The notes under the pieces were generated by a model that saw only the letters and a program-made list of their open reading frames with translations, was not told where the DNA came from and did no database searches. A stretch of 58,402 bases of DNA, from positions 1 through 58,402 of the forward strand of contig CANOBK010000009.1 of assembly GCA_947564265.1 (NCBI GenBank). Reading direction: 5' to 3'. This DNA is from an uncultured Caryophanales bacterium (GTDB lineage: Bacteria; Bacillota_I; Bacilli_A; RF39; UBA660). Below are positions 53,516 to 57,746 of this stretch, piece by piece (the stretch's first letter is position 1; each line of letters begins with the position of its first letter). The position numbers were made by a program, and so were the translations under genes.

Positions 53516-53539
53516 ATGCACCAAGAAATGGGGGATATT

Positions 53540-53818
53540 ATGTTTGGTTCTAAAGTTACCTATGTAGGAATGACTTCTTTTGCACCAGGGACACACTATG
53601 TATTAGCTCGTTATTCCTTAGAGAAAAAAGGTTTAATGAGTAAGGAAATAAATGATCAGTCTCAACTGCCACTTCCTTTAGGATATACAATCGTTAGTGC
53701 GGATGATGAATCTATTTTATATGTAAATACAAAAAAAGTAAGAGCAAAAAAGTATAGAGATGAAAAGACGAACCAAGAATTTTCTCCTGAGTTTGGGACT
53801 CCTAGTAGAACTAGATAA
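53540..53818 (+). CDS. Small protein of a tandem paralogue pair, 92 aa
   Basis: Start ATG 53540 after GGGGGAT; the ORF extends upstream to 53516 without an RBS and overlaps the promoter. The protein reads PGTHYVLARYSLEKKGLMSK, GYTIVSADDESILYVN and ends in EFSPEFGTPSRTR. The same order of motifs is found in the next gene, so they arose by duplication. I know no named family. It has no signal peptide or membrane span. The consensus promoter suggests strong expression. Confidence 0.62.
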   Translation: MFGSKVTYVGMTSFAPGTHYVLARYSLEKKGLMSKEINDQSQLPLPLGYTIVSADDESILYVNTKKVRAKKYRDEKTNQEFSPEFGTPSRTR

Positions 53819-53858: not shown

Positions 53859-54212
53859 ATGTTGAATAAAAAGACTGTATATATTGGAGATAAAATTCTT
53901 GAACCAGGAAAACATTTTGTATTGGTTGATGGCTTTTTAGAAGAAAAGAGTTTGATAAGTAGAGAATTTGATGTTCAAGGAGGAGGACAATATCAATTGT
54001 TTGTCCCTTCCGGTTATACAATTTATAAGTATCGTACTCCAGATCAAACACGCATGTGGGGTGGCAGATTTTATATCTATGTTGATAATGAGACTTGTGA
54101 AGGGTCTGTCTTATATGTAAATAACGTTCCAGTAGAGGTTAAAGTATATGAGGAGAATGGGATGAGATTTTGTCCTGAATTTGGTACTCCAGTAAAAAGT
54201 AAGCGTCGATAA
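53859..54212 (+). CDS. Small protein of a tandem paralogue pair, 117 aa
   Basis: The 117 residues match the preceding gene: PGKHFVLVDGFLEEKSLISR, GYTIYKYRTPDQ, SVLYVNNVPVEVKVYEENG and CPEFGTPVKSKRR, with about 25 extra residues in the middle (WGGRFYIYVDNETCEG). RBS GAAAGGGG. The conserved PEFGTP end and LYVN motif may define a small family of unknown role. Confidence 0.62.
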   Translation: MLNKKTVYIGDKILEPGKHFVLVDGFLEEKSLISREFDVQGGGQYQLFVPSGYTIYKYRTPDQTRMWGGRFYIYVDNETCEGSVLYVNNVPVEVKVYEENGMRFCPEFGTPVKSKRR

Positions 54213-54254: not shown

Positions 54255-54448
54255 GTTTCATGTTGAACAAGGAAGTAGTAGATATTTATTCTTTTTTAGA
54301 GAGTCTATGGTTGGTGGAAATAGATAAGCAATAATATTGAACTTGTCTTTGGGAGTGAATGGGTGACTCCGTTATTGGTCTTAGAGAAAAAAATAAGGTG
54401 GTACCACGAGTTATGTCGTCCTTTGGCATAATTTGTGGTTTTCTTTTT
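54255..54448 (+). ncRNA. T-box riboswitch with intrinsic terminator (leucine-type by context)
   Basis: All late T-box parts are visible. The antiterminator has AAGG (54395-54398), the T-box bulge UGGUACC (54399-54405), ACGA (54406-54409), then TCGT and CCTT (54416-54423). A competing terminator has a 12-bp stem (54404-54415 with 54427-54438, two G-U pairs) followed by TTTTCTTTTT. Stem III is GGAGT/ACTCC (about 54352-54370), and Stem I holds AGAGAG and GGTTGGTGGAAA. The specifier codon is not certain (UUG at 54337-54339 or CUU at 54342-54344), but the downstream leuS implies tRNA-Leu. Uncharged tRNA opens the terminator. Confidence 0.9.
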
Positions 54449-54457
54449 GGAGGTGCG

Positions 54458-54910
54458 ATGGAATTTTTATTTAACTTTATACTTATATTTGTAATTGTCT
54501 ATATTTCTTTTTACTTTGTATCTGTTAGAAAGGCTAGAAAGAACAGTAAAAGAGTTCCAGTAGAGGTACAATATTTATTAATCAGATATCAAATTGATTT
54601 AAAAAAGATTCGGTACAAAAAATTTGTTAATTCAGTAGCGCTCATTGGAAGTTTTGATATCGCATTAGTCGGAGCGATTGTACTTTTAGTGAAAGGGATT
54701 TTATTTCAACTACTTTTTGGATTTATTCTTTTTGTTCCAGTAATTTTAATTAGTTTTCATTTACTTGGAAAATATTATCAGAAGAAATCTAACAAGGGTG
54801 ATGTTGTTGTTCAAATGGAAGAGATGGAAGTAGAAGAAACAAAAAATACAGAAAAAGTAATGATCAAAGAAAAAAAACAAAAATCGAAGGGAGAGAGAAG
54901 AAATGGATAG
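54458..54910 (+). CDS. Conserved membrane protein, first gene after the T-box
   Basis: Start ATG 54458 behind GGAGGTG, giving 150 residues; the ORF begins formally at 54359, but that lies in the T-box RNA. One helix at about 5-22, a conserved cytosolic stretch (VPVEVQYLLIRYQIDLKKIR), then helices at about 58-80 and 85-105, and a charged tail. I recognise no name. Its end overlaps the leuS start by 8 bp, so the T-box controls it with leuS, which suggests a role linked to leucine supply or translation. Confidence 0.7.
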   Translation: MEFLFNFILIFVIVYISFYFVSVRKARKNSKRVPVEVQYLLIRYQIDLKKIRYKKFVNSVALIGSFDIALVGAIVLLVKGILFQLLFGFILFVPVILISFHLLGKYYQKKSNKGDVVVQMEEMEVEETKNTEKVMIKEKKQKSKGERRNG

Positions 54911-57746
54911 TATCCAAAAAATAGAAAAGAAATGGCAAAAGTATTGGAAAGATCATCATACTTTTGAAGCAAAAATTGATAAAAATAAGGAAAAATATTA
55001 TTATTTAGTGGAGTTTCCTTATCCTAGTGGTGCGGGACTTCATGTTGGACATGTTCGTAGTTATACAGCATTAGATGCGATGGCTCGTAAGAAGAGATTA
55101 ATGGGTTATAATGTATTATTCCCAATGGGATGGGATGCATTTGGTGCGCCTGCTGAACAGTATGCGATTAAGAATCATATTCATCCAAGCGCTGCTGTAA
55201 AAGAGAATATCAAGACCTTTAAAGCACAAATTGAAGATCTTGGAATTTCTTTTGATTGGTCAAGGGAATTCTCTACAACAGATCCTGAATATTATAAATG
55301 GACTCAGTGGCAATTTTTACAATTCTTTAAAAAAGGAATGGCTTATAAAGCGAAAAAAAATATTAACTGGTGTCCAAAATGTAAGACTGGTTTATCGAAT
55401 GAAGACTCTAGTGGTGGTGTTTGTGAAAGATGTGGAACACAGGTAGAGCAAAGAGAAAAAGAACAATGGATGCTTCGCATGAGTGATTATGCAGAAGACT
55501 TAATTGAGGGATTAAAAGATACCGATTTCCAAGAAAGAACAAAAACAGCACAAATTAACTGGATTGGAAAATCTGTGGGGGCTGAAGTTGATTTCAAATT
55601 GAAACAAGTAGACGAGAAATTAACAATTTATACGACTCGTCCAGATACATTATTTGGGGTAACTTTTATGGTAATTGCGCCAGAACATCCTTATGTTGAT
55701 TTATATAGTGGTTTGATTTCTAATATGAATGAAGTAATCGATTACCGTGAACAAGCCAATAAGAAGACAGAATTTGAACGTACACAGCTTGTGAAGGATA
55801 AGACTGGTGTAAAACTAGAAGGACTTACTGCGATTAATCCAGTGAATGGAAAAGAGATTCCAATCTATATTTCAGATTATGTTATGATGAATTATGGAAC
55901 AGGTGCGATTATGGCAGTACCTGCACATGATCAAAGAGACTATGACTTTGCGAAGAAATTCGGTATTGATATTATTCCAGTACTTGCGCCTGTTTATTTG
56001 GGAGATGATGCACCTGTAGAAGGAAAGAAGAACACAGAACGAGAAGTAGTAGTTGTCGTAGTAAAGCATCCAAAAGAGGATCAATATTTATGTGTTCGTT
56101 ATCAAAAATTTGGTTGGCAATCTTTCATTATGGGTGGTATTGAGGATGATGAAGACCCTGAAGGAGCAGCTCGCCGTGAGGTTATGGAAGAAACTGGTTA
56201 TACAGATATCAAGAATGTTCAATCACTTTCTTTTGTATTCCAAGAAAAATTCTATGCAGCGCATAAAGATGTTAATCGTTTAACGACCAATCATGTGTTA
56301 GTCGTAGAACTTGGTTCATTAGAACAAAAAGAAATGTCCGAAGAGGAGAAAAATATTCAAGAACCTGTTTGGGTTTCTAAGAAAGAGCTTCGTGACTTCT
56401 TAAATTTTGAAACACATAAGAAAATATGTGACTTCTTAGAAAGTGGTGGTCAAGCATTTATTGAGGATGGAACTCATATTAATTCTGATCTTTTAAATGG
56501 ATTAAATAAACAAGAAGCGATTGATACCATTATTGGTTATCTTGAGGAACAAGGAATCGGTCATAAAAAAACAAATTACAAATTACAGGACTGGATTTTT
56601 ACTCGTCAAAGATTCTGGGGAGAACCAATTCCACTTATTTACTGTGAAGAGTGTGGTTGGGTTCCTGTTCCGGAAGAAGATCTTCCCGTACTTTTGCCAG
56701 ATGTAGCCGAGTATGAACCAACCGATGATGGAGAAAGTCCACTAGCTAGAATTGATGAGTTTGTGAATACAACTTGTCCACATTGTGGAAAACCAGCAAA
56801 AAGGGAAACAGATACGATGCCAAACTGGGCTGGATCTTCTTGGTATTGGTTACGCTATATGGATCCTCACAATGATCAGGAATTCGTTGGAAAGGATGCC
56901 TTAAAATATTGGGGAAAAGTAGACTGGTACAATGGCGGTATGGAACACGCAACACGCCACCTACTTTATGCGAGATTCTGGAATCAATTCTTATATAATG
57001 AAGGGCTTGTCCCCAATAAAGAACCATTTAAAGTACGTGCAAGTCATGGAATGATTCTAGGAGAAGGCGGAGTTAAGATGAGTAAGAGTCTTGGAAATGT
57101 CATTAATCCAGATGATATTGTATCTTCTTATGGTGCTGATGCCCTTCGTACATATGAAATGTTTATTGGTGATTATGAAAAAGAAGCGACTTGGAGTGAA
57201 CAAGGACTGATTGGTTGTCGTAGATTCTTAGATAAAGTAATTCGTCTAGCTGATAAGGTTGTGGAAAAACAAGAATATTCTAAGGAAATAGAAAAAGATA
57301 TCCACAGAACTGTGAAAAAAGTAACGGAAGATATGGATTCATTGAAATTTAATACAGCTATTTCTGCTTTAATGATTCTATTAAACAAAATGGAAAAAAT
57401 GGATTCTATTACTTCCATGGATTATCGCACTTATTTAATTTTATTAAATCCAATCGCACCACACTTGACGGAGGAACTAAACGAAATTCATAAACTTGGA
57501 AATCCTATTTGTGAATCCTCTTGGCCAACATATGATGATGCCATGCTTGAAGATTCTGAAAAAGAGATTGCAGTTCAAGTTAACGGAAAAGTTCGTGCGA
57601 CGATTACAGTCTCTATGGATGACGATGATAAAGAAATTGAGAAAAAGGCAATGGCTGCTGAGAATGTTCAAAAACACATTGAGGGAAAAGATGTTGTTAA
57701 AGTTATTGTTATCAAAGGAAAAATCGTAAATATTGTGGTGAAATAA
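54903..57746 (+). CDS. leuS: Leucyl-tRNA synthetase with an inserted Nudix hydrolase domain
   Basis: LeuRS charges tRNA-Leu. HVGH (47-50), KMSKS (725-729), zinc-ribbon Cys motifs (NWCPKCK, CERCG), the editing-site Thr-rich YTTRPDT and the editing Asp in AVPAHDQRDYDFA are all present. Between VLAP (360-363) and AFIEDGTHINSD (from 518) about 150 residues are inserted. They include a full Nudix box, residues 411-433 (GGIEDDE, then REVMEETGY). Typical bacterial LeuRS has about 800-880 residues and only a short loop there; this one has 947. The Nudix domain may hydrolyse a nucleotide by-product such as a misactivated aminoacyl-AMP or Ap4A; that is inference. The frame is continuous. Confidence 0.93.
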   Translation: MDSIQKIEKKWQKYWKDHHTFEAKIDKNKEKYYYLVEFPYPSGAGLHVGHVRSYTALDAMARKKRLMGYNVLFPMGWDAFGAPAEQYAIKNHIHPSAAVKENIKTFKAQIEDLGISFDWSREFSTTDPEYYKWTQWQFLQFFKKGMAYKAKKNINWCPKCKTGLSNEDSSGGVCERCGTQVEQREKEQWMLRMSDYAEDLIEGLKDTDFQERTKTAQINWIGKSVGAEVDFKLKQVDEKLTIYTTRPDTLFGVTFMVIAPEHPYVDLYSGLISNMNEVIDYREQANKKTEFERTQLVKDKTGVKLEGLTAINPVNGKEIPIYISDYVMMNYGTGAIMAVPAHDQRDYDFAKKFGIDIIPVLAPVYLGDDAPVEGKKNTEREVVVVVVKHPKEDQYLCVRYQKFGWQSFIMGGIEDDEDPEGAARREVMEETGYTDIKNVQSLSFVFQEKFYAAHKDVNRLTTNHVLVVELGSLEQKEMSEEEKNIQEPVWVSKKELRDFLNFETHKKICDFLESGGQAFIEDGTHINSDLLNGLNKQEAIDTIIGYLEEQGIGHKKTNYKLQDWIFTRQRFWGEPIPLIYCEECGWVPVPEEDLPVLLPDVAEYEPTDDGESPLARIDEFVNTTCPHCGKPAKRETDTMPNWAGSSWYWLRYMDPHNDQEFVGKDALKYWGKVDWYNGGMEHATRHLLYARFWNQFLYNEGLVPNKEPFKVRASHGMILGEGGVKMSKSLGNVINPDDIVSSYGADALRTYEMFIGDYEKEATWSEQGLIGCRRFLDKVIRLADKVVEKQEYSKEIEKDIHRTVKKVTEDMDSLKFNTAISALMILLNKMEKMDSITSMDYRTYLILLNPIAPHLTEELNEIHKLGNPICESSWPTYDDAMLEDSEKEIAVQVNGKVRATITVSMDDDDKEIEKKAMAAENVQKHIEGKDVVKVIVIKGKIVNIVVK

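Follow-up and report, generated by a model that had tools for sequence, protein, structure and literature searches.

The leuS locus and the domain nested in it

The window, that is the whole stretch of 58,402 nucleotides from an uncultured Caryophanales bacterium analysed here, carries a leuS gene encoding a leucyl-tRNA synthetase (LeuRS) in which a Nudix domain is nested. The features of the locus are the following.

54359..54910, + strand: ORF of 183 aa, membrane-protein-like, no confident Pfam family, overlapping the start of leuS by 8 bases
54903..57746, + strand: leuS, leucyl-tRNA synthetase with nested Nudix domain, 947 aa (ORF, Pfam, TIGR00396)
55035..55052, + strand: class I HIGH-type motif GLHVGH, aa 45-50 (motif check)
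55632..55658, + strand: TTRPDTLFG, aa 244-252, taken as an editing-site motif (motif check)
55920..55940, + strand: editing-site motif PAHDQRD, aa 340-346, with Asp343 (motif check)
aa 360-363, + strand: VLAP motif (motif check)
55992..56450, + strand: Nudix insert in the CP1 editing domain, about aa 362-516, type A cassette (Pfam, 1h3n alignment gap, domain model)
56133..56198, + strand: Nudix box GGIEDDEDPEGAARREVMEETG, aa 411-432 (motif check)
56250..56279, + strand: FYAAHKDVNR, conserved motif of type A cassettes (alignment A3, motif check)
aa 518-529, + strand: AFIEDGTHINSD, downstream of the Nudix insert (motif check)
57075..57089, + strand: KMSKS motif, aa 725-729 (motif check)

As the first-pass annotation had read it, leuS is a single open frame of 947 codons with the signatures of a LeuRS: the product scores 957.6 bits against the bacterial LeuRS profile TIGR00396 (cut-off 548.4), and the synthetase and editing motifs GLHVGH, KMSKS, TTRPDTLFG and PAHD are all intact. 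Asp343, the presumed editing aspartate, corresponds to E. coli Asp345. The editing domain PF13603 was found at aa 219-365, and the predicted model of the protein is confident and superposes on 2bte_A across 791 residues at 2.5 Å. The 25 contigs of the window's own genome contain no second LeuRS above the TIGR00396 cut-off, and since the window protein is the sole such match in a genome that is 89.6% complete, the protein is presumably the working LeuRS of the organism. Elsewhere in the window, two adjacent small proteins (53516-53818 and 53859-54212) are alike in sequence and each end near a PEFGTP motif; neither had a Pfam match.

The alignment with Thermus thermophilus LeuRS (1h3n) covers aa 6-361 and then aa 517-720 of the window protein, and because it breaks between aa 361 and 517 we place the extra segment at about aa 362-516, its start lying some 19 residues past Asp343. 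This bears out the earlier description of about 150 additional residues between VLAP and aa ~518, at a place where a normal LeuRS has only a short linker; among loci L001-L100, the spacing from PAHxxRD to RQRxWG is 71-74 in plain LeuRS versus 213-224 in Nudix-bearing ones. The Pfam search suggested at that stage located PF00293 (NUDIX) inside CP1, at aa 382-501, with an E value of 8.8e-15 and 55.3 bits (cut-off 21.1). The Nudix box had been described as agreeing with the pattern Gx5Ex7REUxEExGU at every position, and so it does at aa 411-432; the last U is Tyr433, which agrees only if tyrosine is counted as a bulky hydrophobic residue, and tyrosine is nearly invariant there within this Nudix subfamily. 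The lysine of FYAAHKDVNR is invariant in alignment A3.

The predicted model of the domain (pLDDT 94.3) has the alpha/beta/alpha Nudix fold, and its nearest folds are MutT and Ap4A/Ap6A-hydrolase-type Nudix proteins. MutT1, DIPP and sugar-nucleotide hydrolases are also among the near folds, the PDB sequence matches are mixed and weak, and no NCBIfam Nudix equivalog exceeded its cut-off. A foreign base composition of the insert was considered and rejected, with 36.2% G+C as compared to 35.7% in the remainder of the gene. Among 94 distinct CP1-loop inserts (spacings of 150-260, hence without L191, L194 and L163), the Nudix box is strict in 79 and variant in 8. The Nudix domain is under purifying selection, with a dN/dS of 0.06-0.17 in ten non-independent pairs. 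A LeuRS at L049 (3101-5836) has a shortened insert (PAHxxRD-to-RQRxWG spacing 187) with a decayed Nudix box, which by its sequence we regard as a cassette on its way out.

Distribution and exchange of the Nudix cassette

A survey of lineages and insertion boundaries, also suggested by the first-pass annotation, revealed that the layout recurs in the window's family (f1) and in Gracilibacteria/CPR. Of 39 relatives, 12 encode the full Nudix-LeuRS as a frame of 948-968 aa, and in the relative G005 it is divided between two contigs. Within the same genus a plain LeuRS was found in G003, G004, G010 and G012, and no LeuRS match in G006. Across Bacilli, 16 of 395 genomes encode a Nudix-LeuRS, all 16 belonging to f1; among the matches listed from these 395 genomes, which included matches in 54 f1 genomes, there was no full-span Nudix-LeuRS outside f1. 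In the phylum of the Gracilibacteria genome of L048 (Patescibacteria/CPR), a full-span match was obtained in 33 of 239 genomes. With the Nudix-only profile A3, the domain was found in frames of 492-962 aa in 42 of 193 f1 genomes and in frames of 281-301 aa in 4, and a Nudix-only search of CPR placed it in frames of at least 548 aa in 53 of 379 genomes, two of these frames being a ValRS and an IleRS. The LeuRS profile matched 27 of the 30 loci fetched from the f1 search and 30 of 30 from the CPR search, the three others being free-standing forms (see below). In the CPR search nearly all high-scoring copies of this Nudix subfamily sit in LeuRS, and in the window's family the insert was seen at the CP1 loop only. 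The recurrence of the Nudix-LeuRS in many genomes that were assembled separately excludes both chance and misassembly.

One Nudix-LeuRS contig of 3611 bases (L024, G043) lies in a bin titled Burkholderiales that also contains another LeuRS (L114, 882 aa), and was probably misbinned. Carriage by phages or plasmids was considered and rejected: a tblastn search with the insert and its flanks returned 15 phage and 71 plasmid records, all of which covered less than 80% of the query, and the ten listed for either group matched only query residues 1-81, which are LeuRS flank. A scan of viral contigs with the Nudix profile gave 15 weak Nudix relatives.

In a core tree calculated without the insert for 101 of the 199 distinct core rows, Nudix-bearing and plain LeuRS are interleaved. 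Core identity between proteins with and without the domain reaches 87% (L174 with, L185 without) and 83% (L023 and L179), and the core of L001 is 86% identical to that of the plain L015 or L019. A quick tree of the Nudix segments, from which L136, L137, L155 and L305 are absent as the segment rule failed to cut them, sets two types apart (SH-aLRT 96 for A, 99 for B): type A, to which the window's insert belongs, has GGIE...FYAAHKDVNR, and type B, including three CPR copies and the ValRS copy, has GTIK...HHYYAYNK. In all 27 pairs of a type A with a type B protein within the window's genus the cores are 81-90% identical and the Nudix segments 25-31%; for L003 and L004 the values are 90% and 27%. 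The reverse discordance, a Nudix at least 15 points closer than the core, is seen in 91 of 4095 pairs (91 rows, without L101 and L102, which are copies of the window gene), with cores 47-58% and Nudix segments 62-82% identical, for example 55% and 81% in L029 and L045.

In windows of 25 residues, the shift in identity between same-genus A and B proteins is limited to the insert and some 25 residues beyond it. The reverse pairs show higher identity in the 50-75 conserved upstream residues as well, which blurs the limit of the exchange on that side. When the six type A LeuRS are constrained to one clade on the core, the log-likelihood falls by 725 units (AU p 1.35e-46), a descriptive value, as types A and B were named after the core tree had been viewed. 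The Nudix segment moves INDEPENDENTLY of the host gene, and its presence, absence or exchange among LeuRS genes is independent of the core.

Other positions, other hosts and other inserted enzymes

The same Nudix subfamily is found at other LeuRS positions (L293, L289), and also in other synthetases: L198 is a ValRS over its cut-off with a Nudix domain, and L292 an IleRS over its cut-off with a Nudix-profile match. Five proteins (L013, L014, L301, L302, L220) are free-standing forms of 281-309 aa lacking the synthetase core, and consist of a shortened CP1, the Nudix domain and the end of CP1 (Pfam was run on three of the five). They represent only two lineages, four of them being close relatives. 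The Nudix box is kept in all five, and the aspartate of PAHD, a motif found in 194 of 195 LeuRS core rows, is lost in all five, being replaced by isoleucine in four and asparagine in one. G018 and G023 encode a separate plain LeuRS as well, and G042 has a Nudix-LeuRS and a free-standing form together. Overlapping the end of the free-standing gene at L220 is a gene for 258 aa (272-1045) with no Pfam match. Stand-alone Nudix genes of the same subfamily are L224 in G002 and L299 in G788, the latter about 8 kb from a Nudix-leuS. L299 encodes 169 aa, and a piece with stop codons lies at a matching distance in G683 (L300).

In CPR the same LeuRS loop also holds a methyltransferase (L191, PF13489, 9e-11), a serine hydrolase (L194, PF06821, 6.2e-20), a nucleotidyltransferase-like domain (L200, PF10706, 1.2e-8) or, in L163, a HAD domain preceded by a Nudix. 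Insert positions in LeuRS cluster at about 237, 366, 437 and 518 of the 802-position profile, with one at 213, in a sample that the searches had enriched for Nudix and that gives no frequencies; L126, L128 and L132, which appear to be paralogous synthetases matched by the LeuRS profile, are not counted. A LeuRS of 1795 aa at L210 (177-5561) has matches to HAD, Ham1 (two stretches), Nudix and nucleotidyltransferase at four insert positions. RBBP9-like serine hydrolases (E ≤ 2.8e-51) were found in 13 frames of 867-1191 aa in a search of 192 CPR genomes, the hosts being LeuRS by profile in 11 and by NCBIfam in one (L355); the thirteenth frame is that of G143. Inserts of about 100-120 residues are present in the CP1 loop of L199, L217 and L230, none of which gave a Pfam match, and at profile position ~237 in L290; those of L199 and L290 share by eye a GFWNE...FKxxDG pattern, perhaps an undescribed passenger domain.

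From 145 CPR genomes searched for IleRS, 20 with split matches were chosen, and 18 of these have inserts of at least 149 residues, taken as histidine-phosphatase-like (L331-L340, L342-L346, L348-L350). The displayed insert contains RHG in 16, RHA in L331 and neither in the displayed part of L340. His_Phos_1 was identified in all three proteins scanned by Pfam (L331, L334, L336), together with GNAT in L336, and two histidine-phosphatase-like domains lie in tandem in L334 and L335. Among the 98 f1 genomes searched, the full-length IleRS matches listed run without a break. L358, a ValRS-like C-terminal part below the ValRS cut-off, has HAD, hydrolase and Nudix matches, and one host is not a synthetase, namely a glycosyltransferase frame with a serine hydrolase (L357). 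Many of the listed CPR ValRS matches (145 genomes) end around model position 715 and include a stop codon, giving the impression that the C-terminal part is frequently absent.

Interpretation and comparison with known systems

In our view the insert is a functional Nudix hydrolase that travels as a passenger in a permissive loop on the surface of CP1 in LeuRS (probability about 0.65). This fits better than a part in editing because position, host and enzyme vary, the core stays unchanged when cassettes are swapped, and the Nudix can persist after the editing residue is lost. The passenger would be made in step with LeuRS and would hydrolyse a small nucleotide in the manner of house-cleaning enzymes of the MutT/Ap4A-hydrolase type, apart from aminoacylation and editing. 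Cassettes may be exchanged through homologous recombination within the highly conserved sequences on either side, PAHDxRDYxFAKKF upstream and NYKLxDWIFxRQRFWG downstream. In CPR the same carrying of passengers extends to further small enzymes, which occupy several loops of LeuRS, IleRS and ValRS. A broader reading, held a shade less firmly, is that class I synthetases in bacteria with small genomes (CPR and one Bacilli family) probably serve as chassis for a pool of passenger enzymes, in which a few permissive loops of LeuRS, IleRS and ValRS hold a nested Nudix, RBBP9-like serine hydrolase, histidine phosphatase, HAD, Ham1, nucleotidyltransferase, methyltransferase or GNAT domain, and at least the Nudix ones are swapped as cassettes between leuS genes and now and then escape as free-standing proteins that retain part of the host domain.

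Aminoacyl-AMP is made by LeuRS, which can also form Ap4A, and the Nudix might instead work with this chemistry, destroying by-products (Ap4A, released or misactivated aminoacyl-AMP) at the source or, as the first-pass annotation had also proposed, giving a second proofreading step. The restriction of the insert to the CP1 loop and the unbroken IleRS in the window's family are a counter-point to the passenger reading, as they indicate a non-random choice of host that could reflect a LeuRS-linked role; by-product clearance is a possible such role given that high-scoring copies are almost confined to LeuRS, and the presence of Ap4A and Ap6A hydrolases among the nearest folds of the predicted model would suit it. 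We nevertheless find this explanation unlikely, and do not favour the proofreading step, because the subfamily occurs at other LeuRS positions, in a ValRS and in free-standing forms without the editing aspartate, unrelated enzymes take the same loop, Nudix types swap with the core unchanged, and many close relatives lack the insert. A passenger could also shield the synthetase from nucleotide-like inhibitors, for instance leucyl-adenylate mimics of the agrocin 84 type, each inhibitor being countered by its own passenger. The passengers include Nudix, GNAT, methyltransferase and nucleotidyltransferase-like domains, which belong to enzyme classes known for detoxification, and such a defence would account for both patchiness and swapping; it seems improbable to us as no inhibitor, producer or resistance context was found and serine hydrolases and histidine phosphatases are no obvious detoxifiers of such compounds.

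That decay does occur is illustrated by L049, where a Nudix segment of the same kind has decayed in the same loop, yet the recurrence in many separately assembled genomes, the strict box in 79 of 94 inserts and the low dN/dS make it very improbable that the window's insert is a structural spacer, a dead remnant or an assembly artefact. Inteins are modules at fixed sites of essential genes, patchy and exchanged, and the insert resembles them in its fixed site in a conserved essential gene and in its patchy, exchanged occurrence among similar hosts. Pfam found no splicing (Hint) or homing-endonuclease domain in the window protein, the conserved part is the Nudix box, and the free-standing forms retain CP1 remnants on either side of it, so that an intein-like or otherwise spliced-out element is hardly conceivable.

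Aminoacyl-tRNA synthetases are textbook examples of conserved, essential enzymes, and here one LeuRS loop accepts whole enzymes that are replaced while the surrounding synthetase stays nearly unchanged. The nested-enzyme insertions and their matched empty counterparts form a natural series with which one can ask how domains come to be embedded, what leads reduced genomes to house small enzymes inside essential genes, and whether the passengers serve to clean up after translation or to protect it; the natural fusion also makes the fate of synthetase by-products directly testable. The first-pass annotation allowed that earlier reports of the architecture might have escaped it; the titles and abstract beginnings of the open-access PMC literature, which leaves most subscription papers and preprints outside, yielded none of a Nudix, histidine phosphatase or other enzyme nested in LeuRS or IleRS.

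In its core, CP1 editing domain and HIGH-type and KMSKS motifs the window protein is like other bacterial LeuRS (TIGR00396; T. thermophilus 1h3n and 2bte), but where 1h3n has a short linker its CP1 loop holds a whole Nudix enzyme. MutT/Ap4A-hydrolase-like Nudix proteins (2azw, MutT1, the Ap6A hydrolase Ndx1) are separate small proteins, whereas the window's is nested in a synthetase and has a motif of its own, FYAAHKDVNR. Unlike inteins, the insert has no splicing domain and appears to stay in the protein as its own enzyme. There is a parallel in layout with NCBIfam NF040702, an isoleucine--tRNA ligase with an N-acetyltransferase domain: in both, a class I synthetase carries an extra small enzyme domain, the synthetase and the enzyme being different ones, and the window protein scores 72.3 bits against that family's cut-off of 1999. 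With this IleRS with GNAT, known by name, one such layout has already been noticed by curators.
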